From Nitrospirota bacterium (GTDB taxonomy: Bacteria; Nitrospirota_A; Leptospirillia; Leptospirillales; Leptospirillaceae): a DNA stretch of 31,311 bases. Made by a program: the position numbers and the translations under genes. Below are positions 1-17,369 of this stretch, piece by piece. The notes under the pieces were generated by a model, which was given only the letters and a program-made list of their open reading frames with translations, did not search any database and was not told where the DNA came from. The stretch spans positions 1 to 31,311 of the forward strand of contig JAKCCY010000019.1 in assembly GCA_021838765.1 (NCBI GenBank), written 5' to 3'. How positions within the stretch are numbered: position 1 is the stretch's first letter; each line of letters starts with the position of its first letter.

Positions 1-332
1 TCTCGATAAGCCGCAATGTCTTTTCCTTGCAGAGCGGCCATCGATCGTTTCGATAATGGATGACGTTTCCAAATCCGGATCCGCATTCGCTCCTGGACGG
101 CCCCTTTTTTCGAAGGGATGACTTCCCGCTCGTAGCGGTCAAGAGCTTCGGAAAGAGTCGTGTTTTCCGCTTCTTTCCGAGAAACAAATATTCCGCGGTC
201 CATTTCGTTTTCAATCACCCTGGCCCAGATCTCTGCCTCGCACTTCGTGTCGAATGTGCGTGTGAATCGTTCGAAGCCTTTCTTTGTGACGATTGCTCGC
301 CATGCCCCAGAACGTTTCTGGAAAGTGGCCAT
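1..332 (-). CDS. Tyrosine-type site-specific integrase, N-terminal part (cut by window edge)
   Basis: Reading the minus strand from an ATG at 332 gives about 110 residues that stay open to the window edge. The protein begins MATFQKRSGAWRAIV and continues with KGFERFTRTFDTKCEAE and a basic segment ending KGKDIAAYR-like. This matches the N-terminal arm-binding and core-binding region of phage-type tyrosine recombinases; the catalytic domain lies outside the window. An SD sequence (GGAGGAG, complement of 335-341) precedes the start at short spacing. A tRNA 3' fragment at 455-503 lies just upstream, the usual arrangement of int next to its attachment site. The product would integrate and excise a genomic island lying to the left. 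Domain assignment is from sequence resemblance; whether the gene is intact cannot be seen. Confidence 0.85.
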   Translation of the reverse strand, partial: MATFQKRSGAWRAIVTKKGFERFTRTFDTKCEAEIWARVIENEMDRGIFVSRKEAENTTLSEALDRYEREVIPSKKGAVQERMRIRIWKRHPLSKRSMAALQGKDIAAYR

Positions 333-353
333 ATCTCCTCCAAAAATCATTTT

Positions 354-2673: not shown

Positions 2674-4896
2674 TTATTTTTCAACCACATGATCCCGTAT
2701 ATCCAGGGGAATAATCAAAAGAGGAAACTGGTTCAGGTTCCTAGCAATGATTTCAGCGGTGGATTCAAAACCTGGCCTCCATGCCGATTGACCAAGAAGA
2801 ACAAGGCTCGGATTGATATCATGACACCGTTCAACGAAATGCTCATTCCACTTTTTCCCGGAAACCTCCGATAAAAAAATACCTCCAAAAGATTGCGTCA
2901 AATCCAGAAGCATTTTGGAATACAGTCCCTCGCCTGGCTCCCTCCGAACAGAGAGAACGCAAAGCTCAAGGTTGAGCCTGTCCGATAGAACCGCCCCTCT
3001 CCGAATGAGAGCGGCGTCTTCCGGACGGTCGGAGACACCTGCAAGAATACGCCCTCCACGACCGCTTCGGATCACTCGTCCACGACCACCGCCCAAAACA
3101 CATTGCATGGCCAACTCTCTTAAGGCCGTGAGATTATTTTTGGTGAAAAAATTCCTGAGAGCTTCCTCCACCTTTTGGAGGGGATAGACCTTCCCTTCCA
3201 TCAACCGTGACTGTAAAGCCTCTGCAGTCAGGTCCACCAGAACAATCTCCGAGGCCAGGAGGACGGTGCTGTCAGGAACCGTTTCATGAACCCTGATTCC
3301 GGTCTGGAACTCGATGAGATCGTTCAGACTCTCCAAATGCTGGACATTCAACGTTGTAAAGACATGGATTCCCGCTTCCAGAAAAAGGAGTACGTCCTGG
3401 TAGCGCTTTTTGTTCAAAAAGCCCGGAGGATTGCTATGGGCCAGCTCATCGACAAGAACCAGCTCCGGTTTTAGTCGGAGAATTTCATCGACATCCATCT
3501 CACCAAGCACAAGACCATGATAGGAAATCATTTTTCGCGGAATCACCCGAAGGCCTTCGGCCATCTGCTGGGTCTCCTGCCGCCGATGGGTTTCCAGATA
3601 GCCCACAACCACATCTGTCCCACTGGTTTTACGATCCTGGGCTTCCTGAAGCATCCTGTAGGTTTTTCCAATACCAGCAGCCGCGCCCAGAAAAAGGGTC
3701 AGCCGCCCCTTCATGCCGGAAGAGACGGGAAGGAAGGAATCCGATTCAGGGGCAGATTCGACAGGGTGGGGCTGGCCAAGGGTCGGAATAAGATGTATCT
3801 CCACATCAATTCGGGAAAAGTATCGGAGAACGGAACGGACAAGGGATTTTCTCCAGGGGCTTTGTGTTCCCGCATGACCCATGACCAGTCTGGTTGTCTT
3901 TGTCCTCTGAATGAATCTCCATAATGTCCATCCGGGATTTCTTGTCCAGAGGATAGAGAACTTTCCACCGGCCCCTCTCGCCTCCTGCTGGAATCGGGAT
4001 AAAATCTCCTGGTCGGGAGGGGACCTCTTTCCTAAAAAAGAAATCTTTCTCAGATGCAGGACAAGAAGCTCCCCTCCCATTCTCCTGGAGAGGTTTCCAG
4101 CATAACCAACAAGTCGTTCGAGCGATGGAGTGTGCTCCGACACCAGAACAGTGATTCTCTCATAGACTCCTTTTTTCCCTCCCTGCCTGGTCAACTGGGA
4201 ATCGAGGACCTTTGCCATGAACTCAAGGGTCATCCCCCTGAGCTTTATGAGGTTGGACTCTCTGAAAGCTCCCTTCAGGGCCCGTTCGATCTGTTCTTTG
4301 GGGAAAACATTCCCTTCCCTGATCCGGATGGTGAGCTCCGACGGAGGGAGATCCACAACAACCACCTCGTCCGCCCGCTTGATAAAATCCACAGGAACGA
4401 TTTCCTGGACAGGGTATCCGAGAATTCCCCCAGCGGCCTCCGAAAGATCCTGGACATGCATCGAGTTCAAGGTCGTTACAACACTGATGCCGGCATCCAG
4501 AATCTCTTCAATATCCTCCCATCGGTTCTGGTGTCGTGATCCCAGAACATTTCCATGAGCCAGCTCATCGACAAATACAGTGGAAGGCCTCCTTTTGAGA
4601 ATGAACTCAAGATCCATTTCCGGAAAGGACTCTGATCCGATATGGATCCCGACAGGGGGAATCGTCTCGAACATCTCCGATAACCGGAAGACATCCGGAC
4701 GGAGATTTTCCTCGATCCACCCGATAACGACATCAACGCCTCTCTCTTTCATCGCGTTCAGATCCAGAAGGGCCCGCCTTGTTTTACCGGTTCCGGGAGC
4801 CCACCCAAGATAGATCTTCAGTCGCCCTTTGCCCATTTTGAGGATCGTCCCCAGAAATGGGTCAAAGCGTGAAAAATCCTCTAGTTTTTCATTCAA
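2674..4896 (-). CDS. Tandem-duplicated KdpD sensor/USP protein without kinase domain
   Basis: The protein (about 740 aa) consists of two KdpD N-terminal units in a row. Unit 1 (about 25-375) has P-loop GWAPGTGKT, Walker-B-like TVFVDELAH and a universal-stress-protein (USP) fold; unit 2 (about 395-740) has GAAAGIGKT, LVLVDELAHSN, the TTLNVQHLESLND signature and a second USP region. Full KdpD follows this part with four membrane helices and a histidine kinase; both are absent here. The USP part of KdpD is known in some bacteria to bind c-di-AMP, and the P-loop region binds ATP. Single-unit short KdpD proteins are known from cyanobacterial kdp loci; a double unit is unusual. Start: TTG 4894-4896 has GGAGG eight bases upstream; TTG 4911 and ATG 4836 are alternatives. 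It lies divergent to the kdp operon. Confidence 0.85.
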   Translation of the reverse strand: MNEKLEDFSRFDPFLGTILKMGKGRLKIYLGWAPGTGKTRRALLDLNAMKERGVDVVIGWIEENLRPDVFRLSEMFETIPPVGIHIGSESFPEMDLEFILKRRPSTVFVDELAHGNVLGSRHQNRWEDIEEILDAGISVVTTLNSMHVQDLSEAAGGILGYPVQEIVPVDFIKRADEVVVVDLPPSELTIRIREGNVFPKEQIERALKGAFRESNLIKLRGMTLEFMAKVLDSQLTRQGGKKGVYERITVLVSEHTPSLERLVGYAGNLSRRMGGELLVLHLRKISFLGKRSPPDQEILSRFQQEARGAGGKFSILWTRNPGWTLWRFIQRTKTTRLVMGHAGTQSPWRKSLVRSVLRYFSRIDVEIHLIPTLGQPHPVESAPESDSFLPVSSGMKGRLTLFLGAAAGIGKTYRMLQEAQDRKTSGTDVVVGYLETHRRQETQQMAEGLRVIPRKMISYHGLVLGEMDVDEILRLKPELVLVDELAHSNPPGFLNKKRYQDVLLFLEAGIHVFTTLNVQHLESLNDLIEFQTGIRVHETVPDSTVLLASEIVLVDLTAEALQSRLMEGKVYPLQKVEEALRNFFTKNNLTALRELAMQCVLGGGRGRVIRSGRGGRILAGVSDRPEDAALIRRGAVLSDRLNLELCVLSVRREPGEGLYSKMLLDLTQSFGGIFLSEVSGKKWNEHFVERCHDINPSLVLLGQSAWRPGFESTAEIIARNLNQFPLLIIPLDIRDHVVEK

Positions 4897-5087
4897 GGGA
4901 AAATCCTCCAAAACTTATCTTCACCCTTTTAAGACGAAACCAGACTTCCATGGGAGTTTTTCAAAGATAGCATACAAGATCTCTCTTCCATCTTGGTCAT
5001 ATGGCCAATGGTTTCCAAAAATTTTCGAGGGTAGCCTTTTGAAGGCAGCAGGATCATTTCGCTGGTCATCACAAAAAATGCCACCCC

Positions 5088-5118
5088 CTCCTCCCGATCG
5101 CATCACTTTCGGGAGGAG
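5088..5118 (+). promoter_or_regulatory. Perfect 10-bp inverted repeat in the leader of the exported-protein gene
   Basis: CTCCTCCCGA (5088-5097) and TCGGGAGGAG (5109-5118) are perfect complements around an 11-base loop. The right arm resembles an extended SD sequence and ends 22 bases before ATG 5141. There is no following T-run, so it is not a standard terminator. It could be an operator between the divergent genes or an mRNA hairpin affecting translation; the choice is inference. Confidence 0.5.
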
Positions 5119-5140
5119 AGGCTTAATCGGAGAACGTGAA

Positions 5141-5719
5141 ATGAAATGGTTGGTTTTGGCTTCCCGCACTCAAGAACGGATCGGGTCAGCCATGAAACTT
5201 CTTGCGGGAGTGCTGTTTTCCTTGACGGGTCTTTTTTTCGGACAATCCTTTGCCGCCTCTATCGGGGATGAAAAATTCCTGTTGACCGGAAAAGCGTCAA
5301 AACTTCTGGGAGGCATTGTTGTCAGGATCCAAAAAGGGGACTTGTCGGATCATGGGACATTTCTGATGAATCTTGTCCCCATCACCCAAACGGGACGACC
5401 TCTTTGCCGGAAGCCATCCGGACATCTGGTCACGGTTTTCAAGGATCGAATGGTCCGATCCTTGAGAGATCACAGTGCCTTTATCGTAATGGGACCTCAG
5501 GGTTTCTCCCCTTTCCCGCATCTCACAGTCGGGGATTGCCTGACGGTTGCGGCACGAAAGCTGACCCCCCTTTCAGAAATTGAGACAAGAAACGAGGACC
5601 AAATCCGGATTTTTCCATCTGGAAATTCTCGAGAGAAATCTTTCTTCCAGGCTTTTCGAATCAAGCTCTGGCAAAAAGATCCGCCAGAGCCTTCCAGGGG
5701 ATTTTTTTCACGACGATAA
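5141..5719 (+). CDS. Small exported protein of unknown function upstream of kdpB
   Basis: This ORF encodes 192 aa from ATG 5141, which has GGAG eight bases upstream. An internal ATG at 5192 would give a textbook signal peptide, MKLLAGVLFSLTGLFFG, followed by a likely cleavage after QSFA, and a 175-aa product. The mature part has no recognised domain. It contains hydrophobic beta-like stretches, two cysteines (in PLCRKPSG and VGDCLTVAA) and a basic C-terminus ending SRR. No metal or catalytic motif is evident. Its location between the divergent KdpD-like gene and kdpB, about 120 bases before kdpB in the same direction, suggests a periplasmic role in the potassium locus, but that is context only. 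The coding call rests on the signal peptide and open length. Confidence 0.6.
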   Translation: MKWLVLASRTQERIGSAMKLLAGVLFSLTGLFFGQSFAASIGDEKFLLTGKASKLLGGIVVRIQKGDLSDHGTFLMNLVPITQTGRPLCRKPSGHLVTVFKDRMVRSLRDHSAFIVMGPQGFSPFPHLTVGDCLTVAARKLTPLSEIETRNEDQIRIFPSGNSREKSFFQAFRIKLWQKDPPEPSRGFFSRR

Positions 5720-5748
5720 CCTGTCGGATCTTTGGTGCGGAACCTGAA

Positions 5749-5792
5749 TGGCCATTTGGCCAATTGTAACGTTTTTCATCGGGGTCTATACA
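5749..5792 (+). promoter_or_regulatory. Candidate promoter and operator for the kdp operon
   Basis: A sigma70-like pair is visible: TTGTAA (5764-5769), 17 bases, then TATACA (5787-5792), about 47 bases before the kdpB ATG. Directly upstream, TGGCCA occurs twice (5749-5754 and 5757-5762) separated by TT; each copy is a palindrome and the pair abuts the -35 box. This is a plausible activator site, for instance for the LuxR-type regulator encoded at 15589. Assignment is by eye only. Confidence 0.45.
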
Positions 5793-5838
5793 GGGACTTG
5801 TTGATTATTTTCATACAAATATTCTTTTTTGGGGAAAA

Positions 5839-7851
5839 ATGATGAAACAAAAGGAAATGCAAAATCCAGACATCTACAGGGAAGCCATCTTTCAGTCTCT
5901 TGCCATGTTGAATCCGGTCAAACTCTACAAAAACCCGGTCATGTTTATTGTGGAGATTGGAAGCATCCTGACAACATCACTGGCCATTCATTCCGGATGG
6001 ACCCATTCGGGAGAAGCCGCTTTTGGAGCGATGATTTCGATCTGGCTCTGGCTTACGATCGCATTTGCCAATTTTGCGGAAGCACTTGCCGAACTTCGGG
6101 GAAAAGCCCAGGCATCGACCCTCAGATCCACACGCGCTGAAACCACGGCACGACTTGTGACACCGATAGGATTTTCCCATATTCCGGGAAGCGAACTGAA
6201 AAAGAAAGATCAATTTTTGGTGGAAGCCGGAGAAATCATCCCCACTGACGGAGAAATCATTGAAGGAGTCGCAAGCATCGATGAATCCGCCATTACCGGA
6301 GAGTCGGCTCCGGTCATTCGTGAATCCGGGGGAGACCGGTCCGGGGTAACAGGAGGAACAAGGGTTCTCGCCGGAAAGCTCAGGGTCTCGGTCAGCAACA
6401 ATCCGGGAGAAACCTTTCTCGACCGCATGATCTCTCTCGTGGAAGGTGCAAACCGGCAAAAGTCCCCGAACGAGATTGCCCTGACCATCCTGCTTGTCGG
6501 ACTCACCCTGATCTTTCTTTTTGTCGTGGCCTCCATCCCGGCGTTTTCTTCCTATGCGGGAATCCAATCATCTCCAACGATTCTGATCGCCCTGCTGGTT
6601 TGCCTCATCCCGACCACGATCGCCGGTCTACTGCCCGCAATCGGAATCGCCGGAATTGACCGGGCCTTTCGGGCCAATGTCATCGCCAAATCCGGAAAAG
6701 CGGTTGAAGTCGCCGGAGACATCGACATTTTACTCCTGGACAAAACCGGGACGATTACTTTCGGGAACCGTCAGGCAGTCCAGTTTATCCCTGTTCCGGG
6801 CGTTTCAGAGAAGGAGGTTGCCAGGGAAAGCTATTTTGCCTCCTTGTCGGATGAAACACCTGAAGGGAAAAGCATCGTTCTGCTGGCAGCGCCGCTCCTG
6901 GACGCCAAAACACCCCCGAATGGACTGGTGGCGATTCCTTTTACTCCTGAAACCCGGATGAGTGGCGCCGACAGCATCGAAGGAGAAATCCGAAAGGGAG
7001 CGGAAGATGCGGTCAACGCTTATGTCGGAACCCCTTTCTCAAGCGAGATCAAGGAGATTATCTCCGCTATCGCCAAATCCGGGGGAACTCCCCTGGTCGT
7101 TGCAAAAAACAAAAAACCGCTGGGAGTGGTCCACTTGAAGGACATCATCAAGCCAGGGCTGAAAGAACGTTTTGCAAGGCTCCGCAAGATGGGCGTCACA
7201 ACGGTCATGGTGACAGGAGACAACCCACTCACGGCCAAAGCTATCGCCGAAGAGGCGGGCCTCGATGATTTTTTCGCCCAGGCCAAGCCGGAAGACAAGA
7301 TGGCTCTTATTAAAAAGGAGCAGGAAAAGGGCCGACTTGTCGCCATGACAGGCGACGGAACAAATGATGCCCCCTCACTGGCCCAGGCGGACGTCGCCCT
7401 TGCCATGAACTCCGGCACCCAGGCCGCCAAGGAAGCGGGAAACATGGTCGATCTCGATTCCGATCCCACAAAGATCATCGAGGTCGTCGAGATCGGGAAA
7501 CAGCTTCTGATCACCAGGGGGGCCCTTACAACCTTTTCAATCGCAAATGATGTCGCCAAATATTTCGCCATCCTTCCGGCGATGTTTGTAGTGGCCTATC
7601 CACAGCTGAAGGTTTTGAACATCATGGGACTTGCCACCCCCGAGTCGGCGGTCACTTCCGCCATCATCTTTAATGCCCTGATCATCCCCGCACTGATTCC
7701 CCTGGCGTTAAAGGGCGTTTCCTACAGACCGGTCGGAGCGTCCGCCCTTCTCAGGAGAAACCTCCTGATCTACGGACTCGGAGGGATTCTTGTCCCGTTT
7801 TTGGGAATCAAGCTGATCGACATGGCACTTGTGATTTTGCACTTTACCTGA
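5839..7851 (+). CDS. kdpB: Potassium-transporting P-type ATPase subunit B
   Basis: KdpB is the ATP-hydrolysing subunit of the inner-membrane KdpFABC pump. At 670 aa it is close to the usual length of about 680. Visible P-type ATPase motifs are TGES (153-156) in the actuator domain, DKTGTIT with phosphorylated Asp301, and the hinge [17 protein letters not shown], followed by membrane segments including the [17 protein letters not shown] helix. Hydrophobic helices lie at about 30-80 and 215-275. The Ser of TGES is the residue that is inhibited by phosphorylation in the E. coli enzyme. Two ATGs in tandem (5839 and 5842) follow a GGGG element. It is the first structural gene of the operon, unlike the common kdpFABC order. 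Confidence 0.97.
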
Positions 7852-7865
7852 AAGGAGAGAGTTAG

Positions 7866-7952
7866 ATGGGACATTACCTGTTGATGCTGACATTGGGAAT
7901 TGGGGTCTTTGTGGGAATGCGGGCTTATATCGGATTCCTTGAGCGAATCTGA
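7866..7952 (+). CDS. 28-aa membrane microprotein between kdpB and kdpF
   Basis: ATG 7866 follows AAGGAGA (7852-7858) at seven bases, a strong ribosome site placed directly after the kdpB stop. The peptide begins MGHYLLMLTLGIGVFVGM and ends RAYIGFLERI: one hydrophobic helix with a basic, aromatic C-terminal end. It does not carry the NAE ending typical of KdpF, which the next small gene has. It may be an additional stabilising subunit of the KdpABC complex, comparable in position to the small non-KdpF peptides reported in cyanobacterial kdp operons. That comparison is by position and size only. Confidence 0.65.
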   Translation: MGHYLLMLTLGIGVFVGMRAYIGFLERI

Positions 7953-7982
7953 TTATAGGAAAAAAAGTAGGAGGTACCGGTC

Positions 7983-8066
7983 GTGATCTGGGACATTCTT
8001 GGTTTGGTCGTTCTTGTTTTGGTGATTTACCTTTTTGCCACATTGCTCAATGCGGAGAAACTCTAA
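7983..8066 (+). CDS. kdpF: KdpF-like stabilising peptide of the K+ ATPase
   Basis: GTG 7983 follows GTAGGAGG at suitable spacing. The 27-aa peptide MIWDILGLVVLVLVIYLF plus ATLLNAEKL is a single membrane helix ending in the NAE-x-hydrophobic tail seen in KdpF (E. coli ends ALINAEAF). KdpF sits between KdpA and KdpB in the membrane and stabilises the complex. The stop is one base from the kdpA ATG, so the two are tightly coupled. It is too short for routine gene calling and easily missed. Confidence 0.85.
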   Translation: MIWDILGLVVLVLVIYLFATLLNAEKL

Positions 8067-8067
8067 C

Positions 8068-9774
8068 ATGATGATTGCAAATGACTGGATTCAAATATTG
8101 GTTTCACTTTCAGCGGTTGTTCTGATATCCCCACTCGTTGGGCGTTACCTGGCCTGGATCTACCAGAGCCACACTCTCCTTCCGGAGCGGATCATCTACC
8201 GTCTTCTGAAGATCGATCCGGCAAAGGAGATGACCTGGAAAGAATATAGCGTGGCCATCATAGCGTCAAACGGAGTGTTCTTCGCCGCGGGATTTCTCGT
8301 TCTCTGGGGACAGGCGTTTCTTCCCCTCAACCCGAGGCACCTTTCGCCCCTGACCGCCGAGGTCACGTTCAATACGGCCGCGAGTTTTGTTACCAACACC
8401 AACTGGCAGGCTTATGCGGGAGAAGCTCAACTCTCAAACTTCTCTCAGATGGTGGCGATCACATTCCTCATGTTTGTCGGTGCCAATACAGGCATGGCGG
8501 CGCTTGTCGCCATCTTTCGGGGATTCACCCGATCGGGAATTTCCACGCTGGGAAACTATTGGTCGGACTTTTTCCGTTTTTTCGTCAGGGCCTTTCTTCC
8601 CGCCTGTTTTTTGATGGCACTCGTCCACATATGGCAGGGAACCCCCCAGACGCTTGAAACGACAGTATCGGCAAAAACACTCGAAGGAGCCAATCAGACA
8701 CTAATCGTCGGGCCAGTCGCCTCTCTCGAGGCCGTCAAGAATCTGGGAACCAACGGAGGGGGATTCTACAACGCAAACGGCGCCCATCCCTATGAAAACC
8801 CGACCCCCCTGACCAATACGCTGGAATTTCTGGAAATGGGGGTCTTTACCTTCTCTCTTCCCTTTTTCTTCGGCCGCATGATTGGCCGTCCCCGTCAGGG
8901 TCAGGTGTTCTTCGTGATCGTTTTTTCCCTCTATCTCGCCGGTCTTGGTCTGATCGAGCATTCGGAAAAAGCAAAAAACCCGCTTCTTTCTCCTGCCCAT
9001 ATCGCACAAGGGACGACTCCACTTCAAGACGGAGGGAATACCGAAGGGAAAGAGGTGCGTCTTGGCATCACCCAGACCAGCCTTTTTTCAAATACGACCA
9101 TTGCTGCCACCACCGGAGCGGTGGACGGAGCCATGGACAGCATGAACCCCCTGTCGGTCCTCGTCTATCTGGTCCATATGTTCCTGAATGAAGAGCCGGG
9201 AGGAAAAGGGGTCGGGTTTGCGGGCCTCCTCAAGGAAGCCATCCTTGCCGTTTTTCTGGCGGGTCTGATGGTGGGACGCACCCCGGAATTCCTCGGAAAA
9301 AAAATCGAGTCCAGGGAAATCAAGCTATCGGCCTTGTCCCTTCTTGTGACGCCACTTCTTGTATTGGGGCTCACCGCTGTTTCGGTTGTGATCCCCGCGG
9401 GAAAAAGCTCCATGGACAATCCTGGCCCCCATGGATTCATGGAGGTTCTCTACGCATTTGCCTCCGGGAACGCCAACAACGGTTCCGCCATGGCAGGGCT
9501 CAATGTATCGACACCCTATTACGCCATTTTAATCGGTGTCGAAATGATCCTTGGACGATTTCTTCCCCTTCTCCCCCTGCTGGCGATGGCATCTTCCCTT
9601 GCCAGAAAGAAAACGCTCCCGGAAACATCCGGAACCTTCAAAACCGATACACCGCTATTTGTGGTTCTTCTTTTGGGATTCATGATTCTCTTTGCCGCGC
9701 TGACCTTCCTTCCTCCCCTCATTCTGGGTCCGCTCCTGGAGCATCTGTCGATTCTCCATGGGGTCTCTTTCTGA
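8068..9774 (+). CDS. kdpA: Potassium-transporting ATPase subunit A (K+ channel-like)
   Basis: KdpA is the K+-selective, channel-like subunit of the inner-membrane pump. The 568-aa product has the four selectivity-filter loops: SFVTNTNWQ, KNLGTNGGGFYNANG followed by HPYENPT, the third loop near TTIAATTGAVDGAMDS, and GNANNGSAMAGL. NPGPHGFMEVLYA and GLMVGRTPEFLGKKIE are also family hallmarks. About ten membrane segments are evident. ATG 8068 lies ten bases after GGAG; the frame is open slightly upstream to 8035, but that would overlap kdpF, so 8068 (or 8071) is preferred. The length agrees with the usual 555-590. Confidence 0.97.
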   Translation: MMIANDWIQILVSLSAVVLISPLVGRYLAWIYQSHTLLPERIIYRLLKIDPAKEMTWKEYSVAIIASNGVFFAAGFLVLWGQAFLPLNPRHLSPLTAEVTFNTAASFVTNTNWQAYAGEAQLSNFSQMVAITFLMFVGANTGMAALVAIFRGFTRSGISTLGNYWSDFFRFFVRAFLPACFLMALVHIWQGTPQTLETTVSAKTLEGANQTLIVGPVASLEAVKNLGTNGGGFYNANGAHPYENPTPLTNTLEFLEMGVFTFSLPFFFGRMIGRPRQGQVFFVIVFSLYLAGLGLIEHSEKAKNPLLSPAHIAQGTTPLQDGGNTEGKEVRLGITQTSLFSNTTIAATTGAVDGAMDSMNPLSVLVYLVHMFLNEEPGGKGVGFAGLLKEAILAVFLAGLMVGRTPEFLGKKIESREIKLSALSLLVTPLLVLGLTAVSVVIPAGKSSMDNPGPHGFMEVLYAFASGNANNGSAMAGLNVSTPYYAILIGVEMILGRFLPLLPLLAMASSLARKKTLPETSGTFKTDTPLFVVLLLGFMILFAALTFLPPLILGPLLEHLSILHGVSF

Positions 9775-9779
9775 GAGAA

Positions 9780-9803
9780 GGATCGATTCGGAAAAAACGA
9801 TCC
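9780..9803 (+). other. Short hairpin in the kdpA-kdpC gap
   Basis: GGATCG (9780-9785) and CGATCC (9798-9803) pair perfectly around a 12-base loop. A TTGACA hexamer follows at 9807-9812, with only a poor -10 (AATATT at 9830). The hairpin may slow decay of the upstream message or reflect an internal promoter region; neither is certain. Confidence 0.3.
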
Positions 9804-9849
9804 ATATTGACATATGAAACAACTGAAAAAATATTGAAAGGCTAAATAA

Positions 9850-10467
9850 ATGAAACTCTTTGGACAATCATTGCGCGCCACCATTTTCCTGATGATCGTT
9901 TGCGGCATTTTTTATCCCATGGCGGTCACAGCCGTTGGAAAAACCCTCTTTTCCCGTCAGGCAAACGGGACGCTGATCCATGCAAAAGATGGACAAATCA
10001 TTGGATCCGCTCTCATCGCCCAGGGATTTCATGACCCAAAATACTTTCATCCCCGTCCATCGGCCGCCATGACTCCCGATGGATCCGCAGCCCAGCCTTA
10101 TGATGCGGCCTTTTCAAGTGCTTCCAATCTGGGTCCGGACAACAGTGCCCAGATCAAGGCGGCAACCGATGCGGCAAGTGCCTACCGCCTTGAAAACCAT
10201 CTCCCTCCCTCCACTGCCGTGCCCATCGATGCGGTCACGGCTTCCGGATCGGGTCTCGACCCGGACATCAGCCTCTTAAACGCCTATCTGCAGGCTCCGC
10301 GGATCGCCGAAAGCCGGCACATGACTCCTGAAGAGGTCAAAGCCCTGATCAGGGAAAAGATCACAAGACCCCAACTGGGATTTCTGGGAACAAGCCGGGT
10401 CAATGTCCTTGAGCTCAACCTGGCCCTGGACAAACGGCATGAGACCACAAAGGACAATCGACCATAA
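9850..10467 (+). CDS. kdpC: Potassium-transporting ATPase subunit C
   Basis: KdpC is the single-helix periplasmic subunit that boosts K+ and nucleotide affinity of the pump. The 205-aa protein has one N-terminal membrane helix (about 10-30), QANGTLI after it, then IGSALIAQGF, FHPRPSAA, the VTASGSGLDPDIS motif and a C-terminal LNLALDKRHE, all typical of KdpC. The ATG is preceded by AAAGG. It lies 75 bases after kdpA and 32 before the porin gene, in the same direction, and is probably in the same transcript. Confidence 0.96.
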   Translation: MKLFGQSLRATIFLMIVCGIFYPMAVTAVGKTLFSRQANGTLIHAKDGQIIGSALIAQGFHDPKYFHPRPSAAMTPDGSAAQPYDAAFSSASNLGPDNSAQIKAATDAASAYRLENHLPPSTAVPIDAVTASGSGLDPDISLLNAYLQAPRIAESRHMTPEEVKALIREKITRPQLGFLGTSRVNVLELNLALDKRHETTKDNRP

Positions 10468-10499
10468 AAGAACCTCAGACAACGGAAAGGTTTCCCTTC

Positions 10500-11951
10500 A
10501 TGTACAGAAATGCGCTCGACCTGAACAATCAAAGAATCCGTTCCAATAAAGTCGTTAGAACACCGTCCGCCGGTCTGGCTCTCGCTTCGGCGATTCTGAT
10601 CCTGGCCGGTCTCTCCTCCCCGCATCTTTCTTATGGGGACAGCTCCTCTCCTCAAACGACGACAACGGCTCCGGCCACATCCCCGGCACCTGTCACTCCG
10701 GCTGCTCCTCAAACGCCCGCTCCGGCAGCCACGCCAGCTCCAGCGCCGGATCTGATCCTTCCTTCGATGAATGTCCATTTCAAGGGCTTTATCGATGTGT
10801 ACGGGCAATATAACCCGACCAGCGCGTCGACAACGGATTTCCGGGCCTATGATTACGGCGCAAACTCCTTTAACCTCAACATGGCCCAGCTCAAACTCTG
10901 GCGTCCGGACGACGACGGGATCGGCTTTGTCCTCAGAACCGACTTCGGACCCGGCGCCTACGCATCCGCCCAGAATTTTTCTCCGGGGTACTTTGGAGCG
11001 CTTGGAGGCGGCCATGGCGGCTCGACCTCCGTGGGACTGGGAAGCGCCACCATGCCCTACTCCGACTTCTGGCTGGAGGAAGCGTATATCAACTTCTTCG
11101 TCCCCGACACCAACAAGGAGCTTGAGGCCTATGCCGGACAGTTCCAGACACTGGCGAACTTCGAAGTGATCCAGCCCACCGGGAACTGGATGATCTCCGA
11201 CGGTTACACCTTTTTGCTGGGACCCTATACCCACACCGGCGTCCGGATGCACTATGCCCCCAATGCCACCACGAATCTCTATCTCGGGGTGAACAACGGC
11301 TGGAACGGCAACATGCAATCCAACGAGGGGAGCTATTTCCAGGACATCGAGCTTGGTCTGGTGGCCAATCCCGTCTCCTGGCTCAACATCAACTTCTCCG
11401 GATATCTGGGCCCGCAGGTCAGAAACGTCTACTTTGATCCATTGTCCGGAGCCGCCGGAGGGATCGGAGGAGCCGGATCGAGCCTCGCCACAACCTATGG
11501 AGAGGCCAACACACCCACTTGGAGAAACTACAGCGCTTTTGTCATCGAGGTGGGTCCGATCGACCATTTATGGCTGGTCACAAATGAATCCTACGGATGG
11601 CAGGCACAGGGAGCCGTCAATTCATCCGGCACTCCCGTCGGCAATGCCTCCTGGTATTCCAGTGAAAACTTTCTCCGGTATGATCTCTCCGATACAATGG
11701 ACATTGTGGCCAGATACGAGGTCTATTACGATCCGAACGGTTTCATGACCGGAATGCCGGGAACCGCGATCAATGACGAGTCGGTGGACTACCAGTGGAA
11801 CTTCATGCCCAATGTCATCAGTCGTGTGGAGTATCGCCACGACAACGCCAACAATCCGCTTTTTGACAATCCCGCCTACAATGGCGGAAACCGGGGTCCC
11901 GCCCTTTATTCGCAGGATACGGTGGATGTGGAACTGATCTATTCGTTCTGA
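10500..11951 (+). CDS. Outer-membrane beta-barrel porin (OmpL-like, bbp2 type)
   Basis: The 483-aa protein has an N-terminal export signal (hydrophobic core about 24-38, ending near LSYG). A Thr/Pro/Ala-rich linker follows at about 52-82, with repeats such as TPAPAATPAPAPD, then a barrel of alternating amphipathic strands. Barrel segments include MNVHFKGFIDVYGQYN, EAYINFFVPDTN and the final VDVELIYSF, whose terminal Phe is the usual outer-membrane sorting signal. Relatives of the putative beta-barrel porin-2 family are found beside kdp genes in several phyla. The start has GGAAAGG nine bases upstream. The linker may reach through the periplasm or peptidoglycan. By context it would let K+ or another solute cross the outer membrane; substrate is inferred only. 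Confidence 0.85.
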   Translation: MYRNALDLNNQRIRSNKVVRTPSAGLALASAILILAGLSSPHLSYGDSSSPQTTTTAPATSPAPVTPAAPQTPAPAATPAPAPDLILPSMNVHFKGFIDVYGQYNPTSASTTDFRAYDYGANSFNLNMAQLKLWRPDDDGIGFVLRTDFGPGAYASAQNFSPGYFGALGGGHGGSTSVGLGSATMPYSDFWLEEAYINFFVPDTNKELEAYAGQFQTLANFEVIQPTGNWMISDGYTFLLGPYTHTGVRMHYAPNATTNLYLGVNNGWNGNMQSNEGSYFQDIELGLVANPVSWLNINFSGYLGPQVRNVYFDPLSGAAGGIGGAGSSLATTYGEANTPTWRNYSAFVIEVGPIDHLWLVTNESYGWQAQGAVNSSGTPVGNASWYSSENFLRYDLSDTMDIVARYEVYYDPNGFMTGMPGTAINDESVDYQWNFMPNVISRVEYRHDNANNPLFDNPAYNGGNRGPALYSQDTVDVELIYSF

Positions 11952-12051
11952 AGAAAAAGACCATTTGCCAAACTCCGCCATGAACCTTTTCGTGGAGAAA
12001 AGACCGGTTTGAAAATAAAACCACTCTTTTAAAACTCAAGGAGGATGTTTA

Positions 12052-14007
12052 TTGGCGATATTCAGGCTCTACCACGGAACCAGAAAAACCATCACACGTT
12101 TCCGGGAGTCCGTTCTCCAGAGAGTGGTCGGAATCGGTGCCCTGTTTTCATCGGGATATGGAGATGTCGGATCCTCCATCTATTTTGCTCTCGGAGTCAC
12201 AACCATCTACGCCGGCGGTGCGATGTTCCTGGCCATTTTCATCGCCGGCTTCTTTTTTATCGCGACGGTCCTGTCCTATGCCGAGCTCTCTTCGGCGATA
12301 CCGGAGGCGGGAGGCTCTTCCCTCTTTTCACAGCGGGCATTCGGTGACGGATGGGCTTTTTTTGCCGGTTGGGCCCTCCTTCTCGACTATGTCATCACGC
12401 TGGCGCTTTCCGCCTTTTCCGTGGGCCCGTATCTGGGATACTTTTTTCCGGTCCTGAAAGACAATGTTCAGGCCAATGTGACCTTTACCGGGGCACTGAT
12501 CCTTTGCCTCATCCTTTTAAATGTCTTCGGGCTCAAGGAGTCCTCCTGGTTCAGCCTCATGCTGGCGGGGTTTGACATCCTGACCCAACTTTCCCTCATG
12601 TTTCTCGGGATCTTTTTTCTCTTCAACGTCCCCAAGATCATGCATCAGTTTTCCCTGGGGACCAATCCGACCTGGCCTCATTTCCTGTACGGAATTTCCG
12701 TGGCCATGGTGGCCTACATCGGGATTGAGGCGATCAGCCAGATGTCTTCGGAAGCCAGGGATCCGGCCAAATCCGTCCCCAGAGCCATGTTTTTGACCAT
12801 GGGAACGACTGTTTTCCTCTATTCGGGAATCAGCCTCGTCGCCCTGTCGGCCATGGACCCGAAACTTCTTTCGACGGTATGGGTCAACGATCCGATCGCC
12901 GGAATCGCTCATTTCATTCCTCATGTGCACCATTTTCTTGGTCCCTGGATTGCCGTTCTGGGGGCCACGATCCTGACGGTTGCCGCCAATGCGGGGCTGA
13001 TTGGCGTTTCCCGGCTGGCCTATTCGATGTCGCACAATTTTCTGATCCATCCGATTTTCAGACATACCACCAGAAGATGGAAAACTCCGGTCTATTCCAT
13101 CGTGTTTTTTGGCGCCCTGTCGGCGACGGTCGTCGCCTTTTTTCCCTATCTTGAAGTTCTTGCCGATCTCTACAACTATGGAGCGATGCTCTCCTTCATG
13201 ATGACGCATCTGGCACTGATCAAGCTCCGCAACAAGGAGCCGGAACTTCCAAGGCCATTTCGTGTTCCCTTTTCTGTCCGGATCCGAAATTTTGAGATTC
13301 CCCTTCCGGCCATCTTTGGCCTTGTCGGAACCGGAGGGGTTTTCATCATGGTGCTCCTCTTTCACAAATACGGTCGGGTATTCGGGACAATCTGGATGAT
13401 TGTGGGAATCGTCTATTACTACTACTTCCGCCGCAGCACCCGCATGCCCCTGATGGGCCGGGTGGAGATCAGGGAGCTGGTGGAAAACGATTTCGAAAAA
13501 CCGGTTCCCCACCGGAACATTCTGGTGGCAACATCCCCTCATGCCCCCTCCCCGATCCTCCATGACATTGCCAAAATCGCAAAATCCGACAAGGCCAGGG
13601 TAACGGTTGTCACCGTTCTGGAAATCCCCCTCTCTCTTCCCCTGAACGCACCTCTTCCCGAAGAAGAAGCTATCGCGCAAAACACCCTGGAGCTCTGTCA
13701 GGCGATTGGAGTCGAGGGAGATATCCTCTTGGACACGCTTCTCATCCGAAGCCGTTCCATCGGGGACTCCCTCGTCCAGGTCTATACCAGACACAAGGCG
13801 GATACTCTGGTTTTTAACGATACAAACTCTTCCGTCTCCAAATCGATCGACGCGGCCATCGTCCGTTCCGGTGTCCCGGTGACCGTCTGGAAAATTCAGT
13901 CCATAATGGGCCGTTCCGGCAAAAAACCAGGCGACCAATCCATTCTTTCCTCCGGCCATGAGGTTCTGAAAACCTCTACAGACACTCCCTCCCTCCATGA
14001 AGACTGA
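12052..14007 (+). CDS. APC-superfamily permease with C-terminal USP-like domain; K+ importer candidate
   Basis: This is a 651-aa inner-membrane transporter. About twelve hydrophobic helices fill residues 20-455, including the first-helix motif SSGYGDVGSSIYFALG (the unwound GSSI-type binding site of APC carriers) and GIEAISQMSSEARDPAKSVP. A cytoplasmic tail (about 480-620) beginning HRNILVATSPHAPSP resembles a universal stress protein fold. APC proteins of this shape include amino-acid permeases and K+ importers of the KimA type. The kdp setting favours K+, but the substrate is not decided by sequence. Translation starts at TTG 12052, seven bases after a perfect AAGGAGG; no in-frame ATG fits better. 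Its 3' end overlaps the kinase gene by 11 bases. Confidence 0.82.
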   Translation: MAIFRLYHGTRKTITRFRESVLQRVVGIGALFSSGYGDVGSSIYFALGVTTIYAGGAMFLAIFIAGFFFIATVLSYAELSSAIPEAGGSSLFSQRAFGDGWAFFAGWALLLDYVITLALSAFSVGPYLGYFFPVLKDNVQANVTFTGALILCLILLNVFGLKESSWFSLMLAGFDILTQLSLMFLGIFFLFNVPKIMHQFSLGTNPTWPHFLYGISVAMVAYIGIEAISQMSSEARDPAKSVPRAMFLTMGTTVFLYSGISLVALSAMDPKLLSTVWVNDPIAGIAHFIPHVHHFLGPWIAVLGATILTVAANAGLIGVSRLAYSMSHNFLIHPIFRHTTRRWKTPVYSIVFFGALSATVVAFFPYLEVLADLYNYGAMLSFMMTHLALIKLRNKEPELPRPFRVPFSVRIRNFEIPLPAIFGLVGTGGVFIMVLLFHKYGRVFGTIWMIVGIVYYYYFRRSTRMPLMGRVEIRELVENDFEKPVPHRNILVATSPHAPSPILHDIAKIAKSDKARVTVVTVLEIPLSLPLNAPLPEEEAIAQNTLELCQAIGVEGDILLDTLLIRSRSIGDSLVQVYTRHKADTLVFNDTNSSVSKSIDAAIVRSGVPVTVWKIQSIMGRSGKKPGDQSILSSGHEVLKTSTDTPSLHED

Positions 14008-15592
14008 CTCCGAAAGCAATCATCCGGAAGGGTTGATCGAAACCGACCCCTTTCCCCAGGCCGCCAACAAAAATGTCCTTTTGTTGGCGGCTCTTCTCTT
14101 TCTTTTGATTTTTGTGACCGATGCTCTCACCCCCCAGAGCCTGGTCGTTTCCATCCTGCTGGACATTCCCATTGCACTGACCGGTCTGACACTCAGGAAA
14201 AAGGCAACCGTCTCCCTCGTCCTCCTTGGTCTTTTTGCCAATACCTTCGCCGGGATCATCAACGCCAGAACGGAAGGCTCCATCGATACCGTCGCCCTCC
14301 TGAACCGGATCTTTTCCGCCGTTTCCTTTTTTCTCGTGGGATACCTGACGCTGAAGGTCCAGGAAAACGCCCATGAAACAGGAGTGGCCTCATCCGAACG
14401 GAATCGTGCCATAAGAGAAAACAAGATCAGGACGTTTCTTGCAGGAATCAGTGCGCAAAACAGCCCTGACCGGCTTCTTCGGGAACTCACCGGCCATTTG
14501 CTCACCCTTTTTTCAGCAAGAGGCGTCATTATCTCCCCGTCCGATCATGACCGGTGGCGGTCGGCAACCTATTCCTCTCCGGATGGACTCTGGTTCTGGG
14601 AAGCGGGAGAATCCCTTCCCGGAGGATTATCCCTTCTTGCTCAAAAATCATTTTCTCCGACCTGGATCTCAAAGCCGAGCCTTTTTCCGATCCTTGACAA
14701 TAATCAAGTCTCAAAAGGCGTTGTTGCAAGAATTTCATTATCCCCAATCGACCAGGAGGCTGATTCGGGCCAGTTTCTCTATTTGTTTATTCTGGAACCG
14801 GGGGAAAACTCCATCCTGGCAATCCTTACAGAGATCGCGCCGATTATCGAGGAAGTCGTCGCCAGAGTCCGTCTTCTCTCCTACCTGACCCAGTACAACC
14901 AGGTGCTTCTCCATCGGAACAGCGTGATTCATGACCTGATTTACGGTGTCTCCCACGATATCCGCACTCCGTTGATCGCCAACAGCATCAATATGAAGCT
15001 TGCCCTAGACGGAGCCTACGGACCGATTTCCGATGAATTTTCCTCCGTCCTTGAGCAAACGATCCTCTCGAACCAGTCGATCCTTGAACTTTCAAACAGC
15101 CTGTTGCTCCTTTCCCGATTCGAGCTTGATGAGCTCAATCTGATTTTTGAAGCTGTCCGGATCGATTGTCTTTTAATGGAGGTGCTCTTCGATCTGGACC
15201 CTCTTTTACAATCGAAGTCCCTGTGTCTGGTGACCGACCTGGAAGAAATCACCCAAAATGGAGACGGAGCTTCGCTCAAAAGGATGTTTCAAAATCTCAT
15301 CGACAATGCCATCAAGTGGTCCCCTCATGGAGGAACCGTCAAGATATCCTCAAAAAGGGAGCGGTCGGGTGTTACCATTGATATCGTGGACGAAGGTCCG
15401 GGAGTGCCGGATTCGATGCATTCCAGACTGTTCACCCGGTTTGGGGGAATCCATTCCGGTTCCGGCTTTGGGCTGGGTCTTTATATCGCCCAGCAGATTG
15501 CGAAGCGTCACGACGCTCTGATCGAATATCATCCGTCATCTCCCGGAAGCTGTTTCCGGATTGTTTTCAGAACTCAGGAGATTCTGTTGTGA
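13997..15592 (+). CDS. Membrane sensor histidine kinase of the potassium locus
   Basis: The 531-aa protein has an N-terminal membrane region (about 26-120) with four hydrophobic segments, a linker and GAF-like region (about 140-290), and a HisKA domain with VSHDIRTPL in which His320 is the predicted phosphorylation site. An HATPase domain follows with N-box NLIDNAIKWSP, G1 DEGPGVP and G2 GSGFGLGLYIA. The membrane part resembles the four-helix sensor of KdpD, but the KdpD N-terminal sensor and USP parts are absent. Those parts are encoded separately at 2674-4896. The ATG overlaps the permease gene and the stop overlaps the regulator start, giving translational coupling on both sides. It is the likely kinase for the regulator that follows. 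Confidence 0.93.
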   Translation: MKTDSESNHPEGLIETDPFPQAANKNVLLLAALLFLLIFVTDALTPQSLVVSILLDIPIALTGLTLRKKATVSLVLLGLFANTFAGIINARTEGSIDTVALLNRIFSAVSFFLVGYLTLKVQENAHETGVASSERNRAIRENKIRTFLAGISAQNSPDRLLRELTGHLLTLFSARGVIISPSDHDRWRSATYSSPDGLWFWEAGESLPGGLSLLAQKSFSPTWISKPSLFPILDNNQVSKGVVARISLSPIDQEADSGQFLYLFILEPGENSILAILTEIAPIIEEVVARVRLLSYLTQYNQVLLHRNSVIHDLIYGVSHDIRTPLIANSINMKLALDGAYGPISDEFSSVLEQTILSNQSILELSNSLLLLSRFELDELNLIFEAVRIDCLLMEVLFDLDPLLQSKSLCLVTDLEEITQNGDGASLKRMFQNLIDNAIKWSPHGGTVKISSKRERSGVTIDIVDEGPGVPDSMHSRLFTRFGGIHSGSGFGLGLYIAQQIAKRHDALIEYHPSSPGSCFRIVFRTQEILL

Positions 15593-16227
15593 AAATACGT
15601 GTTTTTCTAGTCGAGGATCATCCGCTGATGATGTCCGCTCTCAAAAAATCACTGGAAAGAAATGATTCGATCGCATTCATGGGAGAAGCCCATTCGGGCG
15701 AAAAAGCGCTTGAGATCCTTTCGGAGATCCCTCGGGATATCGACGTCGTTGTCATGGATCTGGGACTTCCGGGAATGTCGGGGATCGAAACCACCAGACG
15801 TCTGAAAAAGGAGCACCCCGGGCTTCATGTCCTGATGTTTACGGTTCATCGGCTGGAAGAGGAAATCTTTTCGTCCTTTCAGTCCGGAGCTGACGGGTAT
15901 TGCCTGAAGGAAACCGATATTGTCAGTCTCCTTCTCGGCATCCAGGCTGTGTCCATGGGATCTTTGTATATCGACCCCCAAATCGCCCATCTCGCCGCCC
16001 GAAGGATCCAGTCCCCGACCTTTCGAGATGAGGGGAATCCCCTGACTCCCCGGGAAACCGAGGTCCTGAAACTCCTGTCGGAAGGATTTTCCAACAAGGA
16101 ACTGGCCATGGAGTTCCAGATCAGCCTGAGTACAGTCAAAGCCCACATACAGAGCATCCTCCAGAAGCTCTCTGCCACAACCCGGGCGGATGCGGCCGTC
16201 AAGGCCATCAAAAAAGGATTGATCTGA
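15589..16227 (+). CDS. NarL/LuxR-family response regulator
   Basis: The 212-aa regulator has a receiver domain (1-120) with acidic residues EDH at the N-terminus, phosphoacceptor Asp57 in VVVMDLGLPGMSG, the conserved Thr in MFTVHR and Lys in CLKE. A C-terminal LuxR-type helix-turn-helix follows (LTPRETEVLKLLSEGFSNKE, then STVKAHIQSILQKL). GTG at 15589 overlaps the kinase stop by four bases. The classical kdp regulator KdpE has an OmpR-type winged helix, so this is a different output family. It is presumably phosphorylated by the adjacent kinase and acts on the kdp and porin promoters; targets are inferred. Confidence 0.93.
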   Translation: MKIRVFLVEDHPLMMSALKKSLERNDSIAFMGEAHSGEKALEILSEIPRDIDVVVMDLGLPGMSGIETTRRLKKEHPGLHVLMFTVHRLEEEIFSSFQSGADGYCLKETDIVSLLLGIQAVSMGSLYIDPQIAHLAARRIQSPTFRDEGNPLTPRETEVLKLLSEGFSNKELAMEFQISLSTVKAHIQSILQKLSATTRADAAVKAIKKGLI

Positions 16228-17323: not shown

Positions 17324-17369
17324 CCGGAAAACCCTTGAACTTGAATATGGAGGCCTGGTCAGCTTTTTT
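17319..17369 (+). terminator. Intrinsic terminator after the radical SAM gene
   Basis: GCTGACC (17319-17325) pairs perfectly with GGTCAGC (17357-17363) and is followed immediately by six T (17364-17369). The loop is long (31 bases). The structure overlaps both the radical SAM stop codon and the 3' end of the convergent c-di-GMP gene, and would end the rightward potassium-region transcript. Confidence 0.6.

Follow-up and report, generated by a model that had tools for sequence, protein, structure and literature searches.

Gene content of the kdp locus

The window, i.e., the whole stretch of 31,311 nucleotides that was analysed, carries a Leptospirillum-like kdp locus which lacks a full KdpD/KdpE (Table 1). 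The host is an iron-oxidising acidophile, in which K+ uptake presumably contributes to pH homeostasis. The kdpB, kdpA and kdpC genes together span positions 5839–10467. The same genes are found in the same order repeatedly across the Leptospirillaceae, so the arrangement is not due to chance.

Table 1. Genes and candidate regulatory sites of the kdp locus (positions in the window).
Feature	Position	Strand	Remarks
Tandem short KdpD	2674..4911	-	745 aa; TTG start; PF02702 twice
Imperfect operator copy, 1 mismatch	4994..5007	.	83 bp from the KdpD start
Candidate operator of the response regulator, TGGCC-ATTT-GGCCA	5749..5762	.	Followed by ATTG, then a TATA-like box 30–31 bp from the operator centre
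kdpB, ATPase	5839..7851	+	TGES serine present
kdpA	8035..9774	+	Profile matches
kdpC	9850..10467	+	Profile matches
BBP2-type outer-membrane porin	10500..11951	+	Synteny kept in most relatives
APC-superfamily transporter, Usp-like domain at C-terminus	12052..14007	+	
Histidine kinase (HK)	13997..15592	+	Four helices, GAF-like, DHp (SHDIRTP motif), CA
NarL/LuxR-type response regulator (RR)	15589..16227	+	Receiver and GerE/LuxR domains

The product of the APC gene, considered as a possible KimA-type K+ transporter, scores higher against amino-acid transporters of the PDB (93 bits) than against KimA (62 bits). The APC permease of D. deserti was rejected as an ortholog (the two show no similarity), and its own comparison with the PDB gave no match. 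Control by a c-di-AMP (ydaO) riboswitch was rejected, since the window gives no Rfam match at gathering scores.

The tandem KdpD

A sequence-only reading of this DNA had described the KdpD sensor/USP region as a separate protein at 2674–4896. It is indeed separate, although with its TTG start the gene reaches to 4911. PF02702 matches the 745-aa protein in two stretches (whole-protein E 1e-159) and Pfam finds no HK domain in it. The layout by residue is KdpD1 (about 26–238), Usp1 (about 250–376), KdpD2 (399–610) and Usp2 (about 619–738). The Usp parts score just below the Pfam cut-off (21.6 against 24 bits), but their fold is KdpD-Usp-like. The NCBIfam model NF038185 (KdpD_non_kinase) also matches in two stretches, with 518.9 bits, below its curated cut-off of 550.

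The two copies differ in their catalytic residues. In copy 2, the Walker A Lys, the Walker B DE, the aromatic residue (a Tyr at the position of E. coli W39) and the equivalent of R190 are invariant in 13/13 tandem KdpDs. This copy therefore has the residue set of the serine kinase, with GKT in Walker A, DE in Walker B and an aromatic + Arg pair that contacts adenine. Copy 1 retains the Walker A Lys, the DE of Walker B and the Arg that corresponds to R190, also in 13/13, but its motif histidine is replaced by Lys (11/13) or Asn (2/13), and the aromatic adenine-contact position is occupied by Arg (12/13) or His (1/13); taken alone it lacks the serine-kinase set, the aromatic being lost. Since Lys, DE and Arg are retained while the histidine and the aromatic are swapped, copy 1 is neither decaying nor identical to copy 2.

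Tandem KdpDs also occur in a few lineages beyond the Leptospirillaceae. The asymmetry of one kept and one altered copy is also seen in tandem KdpDs of these other lineages (24/24 examined, many of them close kin), in a comparison for which 12 of the family's 30 tandem proteins and a selection of 19 single-copy rows were used. Judging from sequence, a doubled short KdpD with one intact and one consistently altered copy would be a feature new to us. A passage of PMC5772234 mentions "two copies of kdpD" in the type strain of L. ferriphilum, which may refer to this protein and the HK. A KdpD domain fused to an MgtE-type transporter was also found (P0107).

The histidine kinase and the response regulator

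The separate four-helix kinase and the LuxR-type regulator, which is not OmpR-type, were both correctly recognised in the earlier reading, and domain searches place the two KdpD units, the HK and the GerE-type RR on separate chains. Pfam finds HisKA (E 1.3e-6) and HATPase_c (E 3e-21) in the HK. In its AlphaFold2 model, four helices start at residues 25, 48, 68 and 98, in a putative membrane part whose pLDDT is only about 50–75; next come an alpha/beta domain resembling GAF and then DHp and CA. The RR has its best NCBIfam score with NarL, below the cut-off; being of the GerE type, it is not an OmpR-type KdpE.

The HK sensor region shows a remote similarity to the 4TM+GAF sensor of KdpD over its full length (probability 39.9, E 5e-5), and that of the Deinococcota HKs gives 79.2 (E 1.8e-6). 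Among other HK sensor regions used as controls, 19/20 score ≤0.4; these are single sequences compared with profiles, which makes the control weaker. A fold search returned generic HKs, with the KdpD sensor absent from the best 50 rows. The scan of named genomes with the HK alignment found other HKs and some full KdpDs among the best 80 of 536 matches, because its patterns derive from the kinase core, and these matches served only as outgroup and controls.

For the kinase core, a common origin with KdpD is not rejected by a one-clade test (p 0.26, with the KdpD-like row L119 included). Two earlier tests had rejected an origin from a severed KdpD, but both were confounded by what lay outside the tested group: full KdpDs in the one (p 1e-105), L119 in the other (p 0.04 and 0.015). 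On these comparisons, the HK and the tandem KdpD may be the parts of a split KdpD.

A candidate operator

The palindrome TGGCC-N4-GGCCA occurs in exact form in 12/15 Leptospirillaceae regions and 5/9 Deinococcota regions, and is present in an intergenic region of D. radiodurans. In 12/14 family regions a TATA-like box is also present, and its spacing from the palindrome takes one of two fixed values. The exact site is absent from genomes G004, G006 and G007 and from 4/9 Deinococcota regions, and the kdp region of G012, where the set is replaced (see below), also lacks it. The imperfect copy at 4994..5007 may be due to chance, as 11 of 400 shuffles of the region give a site with at most one mismatch. 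The palindrome is not enriched genome-wide: G001, the nearest genome, contains 5 exact sites, fewer than the 9 of the reversed-pattern control. Of 11 other sites inspected, 9 fall within reading frames. The motif was first noticed by eye, and the positional signal is the sole evidence for it; the RR of D. radiodurans also shifted a 38-bp fragment without the palindrome (PMC5716572), which counts against an operator role. TGGCC-N4-GGCCA is proposed as a candidate operator of the RR, new to us. It would give the LuxR-type branch an operator common to two distant phyla.

Distribution in the Leptospirillaceae

The tandem KdpD is present in 13 of the 21 Leptospirillaceae genomes. The HK ortholog is found in 12/13 kdpA-positive and 0/8 kdpA-negative genomes (Fisher p 4e-5, uncorrected for kinship and genome incompleteness). 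The RR is found in 11/21; among HK-positive genomes it is absent only from G005, whose contig terminates inside the HK. In G007, the HK–RR pair lies directly 3' of kdpC. The three proteins thus form one set, as expected if the sequence-only reading was right to link them. In G010 and G021 the tandem KdpD occurs without kdpA, HK or RR, on contigs of 3.8 and 5.1 kb, that of G010 ending in a partial kdpB.

G012 is the sole kdpA-positive genome without the HK ortholog, and it also lacks the RR. It is the only one of the 21 to carry a one-chain KdpD, together with a KdpE that is 49% identical to that of E. coli (220 bits). This looks like a natural swap, in which the entire set was traded for a one-chain KdpD and KdpE. 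A complete KdpD/KdpE pair elsewhere in the genome would have spoken against the proposed split; G001 holds none, its best KdpE-like regulator being only 37–39% identical to E. coli KdpE (118 bits; 37% for the best), and its only PF02702 matches are the two halves of the tandem protein, with no second KdpD gene.

Relation to Deinococcus and other known systems

In E. coli, KdpD, DUF4118, GAF, HisKA and HATPase domains are found in one KdpD chain (Usp is below the same Pfam threshold) and KdpE is OmpR-type. The window shares with it the KdpD and Usp domains and a comparable HK sensor layout, but has neither a single chain running from KdpD to HATPase nor an OmpR-type regulator.

The kdp neighbours of D. 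radiodurans encode a KdpD-N (DR_B0088), a separate sensor kinase (DR_B0082) and a response regulator (DR_B0081) (Dani 2017, PMC5716572). Deletion of this regulator abolishes KdpB induction; its requirement for kdp induction at low K+ has been shown only in D. radiodurans (PMC5716572). The window likewise has a short KdpD on its own chain and a separate HK and NarL/LuxR-type RR beside kdp. Its HK (30% identity over 479 aa) and RR (45%) are orthologous to those of D. radiodurans, the HK forms a clade with Deinococcota (support 100/99.9, in a tree from which 9 of the 71 HK rows were left out for want of a usable match), and the sensor regions match with a probability of 100 (E 1e-37). All 23 plasmid records that match the HK at E 1e-20 are from Deinococcota. 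In this phylum, the HK–RR pair adjoins the kdp genes in 7/9 organisms and the RRs are of the GerE type in 9/9; two of the short KdpDs were assigned by Pfam, the remainder by annotation and length. The window thus holds the Deinococcus-type set: a KdpD-Usp chain without HK domains, although doubled, an orthologous HK and an adjacent NarL/LuxR-type RR. The two loci differ in that KdpD-N of D. radiodurans is single, has 365 aa and lies downstream of kdpC, whereas the 745-aa tandem is divergent from kdpB; in that the HK–RR genes are divergent from kdp in D. radiodurans but downstream and in the same direction in the window; and in that the D. radiodurans operon has no porin or APC gene.

Silberberg et al. 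identified the KdpD domain as a serine kinase that switches KdpB off, an activity independent of the HK domains (Silberberg 2024, PMC11018627). They also describe a recurring class in which the serine kinase and the HK are on different chains (PMC11018627). The D. geothermalis protein DgKdpD is, like the window protein, a KdpD-Usp without HK domains (PMC11018627), and the catalytic residues of copy 2, the TGES serine and diadenylate cyclase are all present as in that system; in contrast, the window chain has two KdpD-Usp units, the first of which is altered. The TGES serine is the target of the KdpD serine kinase in E. coli. TGES is conserved in all 10 KdpBs of the family that were examined, as it is in those of E. 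coli and D. radiodurans.

A Leptospirillum cluster with the same genes as the window is listed in PMC7231039 (kdpABC, BBP2 porin, "gadC2a" permease, "K+ sensing" HK and CitB-type RR), in a passage that does not mention tandem KdpD domains, an operator or orthology with Deinococcus. The earlier suggestion that the circuit was undescribed therefore fails, because the orthologous D. radiodurans set was known, the class is recurrent (PMC11018627) and the cluster had been listed (PMC7231039).

A model for the locus and its alternatives

We consider it probable that the locus encodes a two-branch, Deinococcus-type control of potassium, in which the HK and RR turn kdp on and the doubled KdpD turns the pump off. 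Gene set, linkage, orthology and the conservation of residues and operator come from the sequences, and we infer every biochemical step, what the ligand is and what copy 1 does. In the on-branch, the membrane HK would sense low K+ or osmotic stress and phosphorylate the NarL-type RR, which would bind TGGCC-N4-GGCCA directly upstream of the promoter and activate kdpBAC; via the same or a second site, it may also activate the tandem KdpD gene, which is transcribed divergently, together with the HK–RR genes. In the off-branch, the soluble tandem KdpD would phosphorylate the TGES serine of KdpB, which would stop the pump at high K+. Copy 2 would be an atypical serine kinase, and the Usp domains ligand sensors (c-di-AMP likely). 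Copy 1 would be a diverged P-loop unit which has kept its phosphate-binding residues, and which probably regulates copy 2 or serves as a built-in dimer partner. Transcription and pump inhibition, which are merged in E. coli KdpD, would then sit on separate proteins. The doubled kinase makes one ask how regulation works in a short KdpD that has neither membrane nor HK dimerisation parts.

The soluble tandem KdpD might instead be mainly a ligand sensor that gates the separate HK in trans, as a two-chain KdpD. The co-occurrence of the HK with kdpA and the tandem KdpD, the remote full-length similarity of the sensors and the one-clade test agree with this, but the activity demonstrated for the KdpD domain is the phosphorylation of the KdpB serine, for which HK domains are not needed (PMC11018627), and copy 2 retains all the tested catalytic residues, which fits an action on KdpB, so we find trans-gating rather unlikely. 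To about the same low degree, we entertain a fused asymmetric pair, in which an active KdpB kinase is joined to a P-loop partner repurposed for reading nucleotides, which couples inhibition to the HK/RR in trans; one soluble protein would then set both pump activity and transcription. Still less likely, both copies would be active serine kinases, copy 2 acting on KdpB and copy 1 on the HK or the APC-Usp transporter: copy 1 keeps its Walker residues and Arg, and the MgtE fusion hints at other targets, but it lacks the aromatic, the E. coli double mutant W39A/R190A is almost inactive (PMC11018627) and the target of copy 1 is only putative.

c-di-AMP and induction data

In the two-branch model, c-di-AMP is a plausible ligand, given that a gene for its synthase (DAC, diadenylate cyclase) is found in 19/21 family genomes. 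The short KdpD of D. geothermalis responds to c-di-AMP (PMC11018627). The c-di-AMP motif of the Usp domain of Firmicutes KdpDs, (A/G/C)XSXSX2N(Y/F) (PMC8214093), was absent from both copies and from D. radiodurans KdpD-N when the alignment was checked by eye. Its absence still allows binding, because KdpD-N of D. radiodurans also lacks it and the D. geothermalis protein responds.

The kdpC and kdpD genes of L. ferriphilum are induced 25- and 50-fold under NaCl (PMC6828654). This induction cannot be assigned to the window by DNA, because none of the published kdpC/kdpD primers tried (3 of 4) matches it. Passages of PMC11157003 and PMC9040811 add nothing further on the Leptospirillum kdp locus. 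The forward primer for kdpD, when translated manually, encodes LLVLHLR, a run of residues that copy 1 also has.

The kdp locus and its neighborhood

The kdp locus of the window comes from a Leptospirillum-like bacterium. G001, the closest genome compared, has 88% of sampled 31-mers in common with the window, the histidine kinases (HK) of the two are 99.8–100% identical, and a close database relative (P0003) bears the name Leptospirillum sp. The same Leptospirillum cluster is already listed in PMC7231039, where the APC transporter is named gadC2a. PMC5772234 gives two kdpD copies for the type strain of L. ferriphilum. In L. ferriphilum, kdpC and kdpD were induced 25- and 50-fold, 5 min after NaCl (PMC6828654).

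A domain search confirms the layout proposed in the sequence-only reading: a soluble double KdpD, a separate HK and a LuxR-type response regulator (RR). The "double sensor" indeed consists of two KdpD-Usp units in tandem; its structure model matches PDB 2r8r (P. syringae KdpD N-terminal domain, target-normalised TM 0.95) and 7ji4 (S. aureus KdpD-Usp with c-di-AMP, 0.78). The genes for the APC transporter, the HK and the RR overlap, by 11 and 4 bases, and are therefore probably co-transcribed. The kdpD/kdpB intergenic region is about 70% identical to that of G002 at the DNA level.

Features of the kdp locus and its flanks (positions in the window)
Feature	Position	Strand	Remarks
Integrase-like N-terminus	3-350	-	left edge; by eye; flanks the locus
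Tandem KdpD	2674-4911	-	745 aa, two KdpD domains, HK domain absent
Possible small exported protein	5192-5719		kdpD/kdpB intergenic; signal-peptide-like start, by eye
Candidate operator	5749-5762		TGGCC-N4-GGCCA
kdpB		+	
kdpA		+	
kdpC		+	
BBP2 porin		+	
APC transporter	12052-14007	+	Usp-like tail
HK	13997-15592	+	
RR	15589-16227	+	NarL/LuxR type
PAS-GAF-GGDEF-EAL protein	17359-20586	-	flanks the locus

Co-occurrence with the pump in Leptospirillaceae

Among 21 Leptospirillaceae genomes, several of which are only 64–81% complete, 13 encode the tandem KdpD, 13 kdpA, 12 an HK ortholog (>200 bits) and 11 the RR. The HK is found in 12/13 kdpA-positive and 0/8 kdpA-negative genomes (Fisher p 4e-5, uncorrected for kinship and incompleteness). 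In G005, which has the HK without the RR, the contig ends inside the HK. The absence of the tandem from G003 says little because the contig stops 94 bp past kdpB. Two genomes, G010 and G021, encode the tandem but show no kdpA; the contigs concerned measure 3.8 and 5.1 kb, and that of G010 runs into a partial kdpB. The system is real, well conserved and functionally coherent.

The kdp-linked type of APC-Usp transporter (at least 75% identical to that of the window) has a similar distribution (12/13 and 0/8, G012 included), and a second type (about 63–74% identity) occurs elsewhere, including in genomes that lack kdpA. G007 has neither a porin nor an APC gene at the locus, and HK-RR directly follow kdpC, so there the pair tracks the pump genes.

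In G012 (locus L094), kdpABC keeps its porin and APC neighbors and adjoins an 888-aa one-chain KdpD. Its KdpE, on a different contig, is 49% identical to that of E. coli, and neither an HK nor an RR ortholog was found in this genome, which is 81% complete. With that caveat, the whole separate-chain control set seems to have been naturally replaced in G012.

A known type of circuit, shared with Deinococcota

In D. radiodurans, KdpD-N, sensor kinase and RR are likewise encoded by separate genes, and deletion of the RR abolishes the induction of KdpB at low K+ (Dani 2017, PMC5716572). According to Silberberg 2024 (PMC11018627), serine kinase and HK on separate chains recur across several phyla. 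The proposal that the circuit was undescribed therefore fails. What appears to be new is the tandem serine-kinase chain and a candidate operator that crosses phyla.

A tblastn search of 72,556 plasmid records with the HK (E 1e-20) retrieved 23 records, all from Deinococcota (22 Deinococcus, one Allomeiothermus). One record was examined for each of nine organisms. The HK-RR pair adjoins kdp genes in seven: D. radiodurans, Allomeiothermus silvanus, D. ficus, and Deinococcus sp. QL22, D7000, AJ005 and KNUC1210. On D. deserti plasmid 3 (L190), the pair and an exact palindrome adjoin TrkH and an APC-family permease in place of kdp, which suggests a wider K+ regulon. For Deinococcus sp. NW-56, the annotation shows no potassium gene within 9 kb of the pair. 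All nine RRs are of the GerE type. In a tree of HK kinase cores, Leptospirillaceae and Deinococcota fall into a single clade (support 100/99.9), and the sensor regions of the two groups match with a probability of 100 (E 1e-37).

KdpD may be truly "split", as first proposed. The HK sensor has a remote, region-spanning similarity to the 4TM-GAF sensor of KdpD (E 5e-5 for Leptospirillaceae, 1.8e-6 for Deinococcota). Nineteen of 20 other HK sensor regions gave at most 0.4 against either profile, although these were single sequences and hence a weaker control than the test; the exception, L119 (99.9), is itself KdpD-like. One-clade tests of the kinase core with KdpD are confounded if KdpD-like rows stay outside the group; when all of these rows are grouped with it, a common origin is not rejected (p 0.26). 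The HK may thus be a very old KdpD half or a different kinase whose sensor is similar.

A candidate operator

The palindrome TGGCC-N4-GGCCA was first noticed by eye in divergent intergenic regions, and the pattern was then fixed before Deinococcota were checked. It is exact in 12/15 Leptospirillaceae regions (14 genomes), with one mismatch in G004 and G006 and two in G007, and exact in 5/9 Deinococcota regions. It is absent, at up to one mismatch, from the QL22, KNUC1210 and NW-56 regions; A. silvanus has it with one mismatch only, which 74/400 shuffles equal. It is also absent from the kdpA/KdpD region of G012 and from a stretch upstream of kdpA in G024. The exact pattern arises in at most 2/400 shuffles of any region (0/150 in two long regions).

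The pattern is not enriched genome-wide: G001 (2.56 Mb) has five exact sites, including that of kdp, versus nine for a reversed-pattern control, which is the commoner in 12/15 genomes searched. Of 11 other sites in 10 stretches examined, nine lie within reading frames. The evidence for the operator is therefore its position. Where the palindrome runs straight into ATTG, a TATA-like box lies 30–33 bp from its centre in 5/6 family regions (not G007). A third half-site intervenes in genus g3, where 7/8 regions (not G005) have the box 53–55 bp away. Exact sites also occur upstream of APC (G013, G020) and of the porin (G005). All five Deinococcus regions that carry a site have one centre at 44–46 bp from the annotated HK start; Dani places the D. 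radiodurans start elsewhere (PMC5716572). These positions fit an activator binding next to the promoter.

The published D. radiodurans binding assay speaks against the operator: a palindrome-free 38-bp fragment was also shifted, at micromolar protein (PMC5716572). The palindrome is expected on the 200-bp fragment of that assay, whose position is given as directly upstream of kdpB.

The doubled KdpD and a two-branch model

The tandem is not among the KdpD architectures in the text of Silberberg 2024 (PMC11018627), and none of the papers listed by literature searches dealt with one, judged by title and start of abstract. A database search with copy 1 scored at least 7999 candidates; among the best 120 of 159 matches, at least 42 proteins have two KdpD domains. 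Of the 42 listed, 30 are at least 52% identical to the protein of the window and 12 are more distant, two of them named Tyrphobacter and Xenobia; Pfam confirms the doubling in 10 of these 12.

The copies differ. In copy 2, the Walker lysine, the Walker B DE, the aromatic residue (Tyr) and the R190 equivalent are all present in 13/13 family members. Copy 1 also has the lysine, DE and arginine in 13/13, but its aromatic position is Arg or His, and the histidine of the ETHGR motif is Lys or Asn. Mean pairwise identity of the KdpD domains is 0.72 for copy 2 versus 0.58 for copy 1; the Usp parts are similarly conserved (0.63 and 0.60). Each of the 24 tandem proteins examined has the motif histidine in just one copy: copy 1 is altered in 20, copy 2 in four near-identical proteins (P0040-P0043), whose copy 2 also lacks the Walker lysine and whose copy 1 looks intact, a mirror image of the Leptospirillum case. 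The histidine is kept in 18/19 single-copy rows; one of these rows, P0039, clusters with a family copy 2 and probably represents part of a tandem protein. By the well-supported branches of the tree, the copy-1 label must have changed at least twice, with long-branch caveats, so the tree does not support a single origin of all tandems.

As an atypical serine kinase, the KdpD domain phosphorylates KdpB on Ser162, and the short KdpD of D. geothermalis is stimulated by c-di-AMP (Silberberg 2024, PMC11018627). The best-supported account is a two-branch control, each biochemical step of which is inferred from relatives. The HK/RR branch would induce the pump, and the tandem KdpD would inhibit it through the TGES serine of KdpB, probably under c-di-AMP. 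This serine is present in 10/10 family KdpBs examined, and 19/21 family genomes have a c-di-AMP synthase gene. Our preferred guess is that copy 1 serves as a built-in regulatory partner, because its phosphate-binding residues are kept and its adenine-contact and motif residues are altered consistently, not randomly lost.

Protein P0107 (Candidatus Saccharimonadales) joins KdpD-Usp units to CBS and MgtE domains, and P0044 (Thermoanaerobaculia) joins them to a PTS IIA domain; the serine-kinase domain may control other transporters as well.
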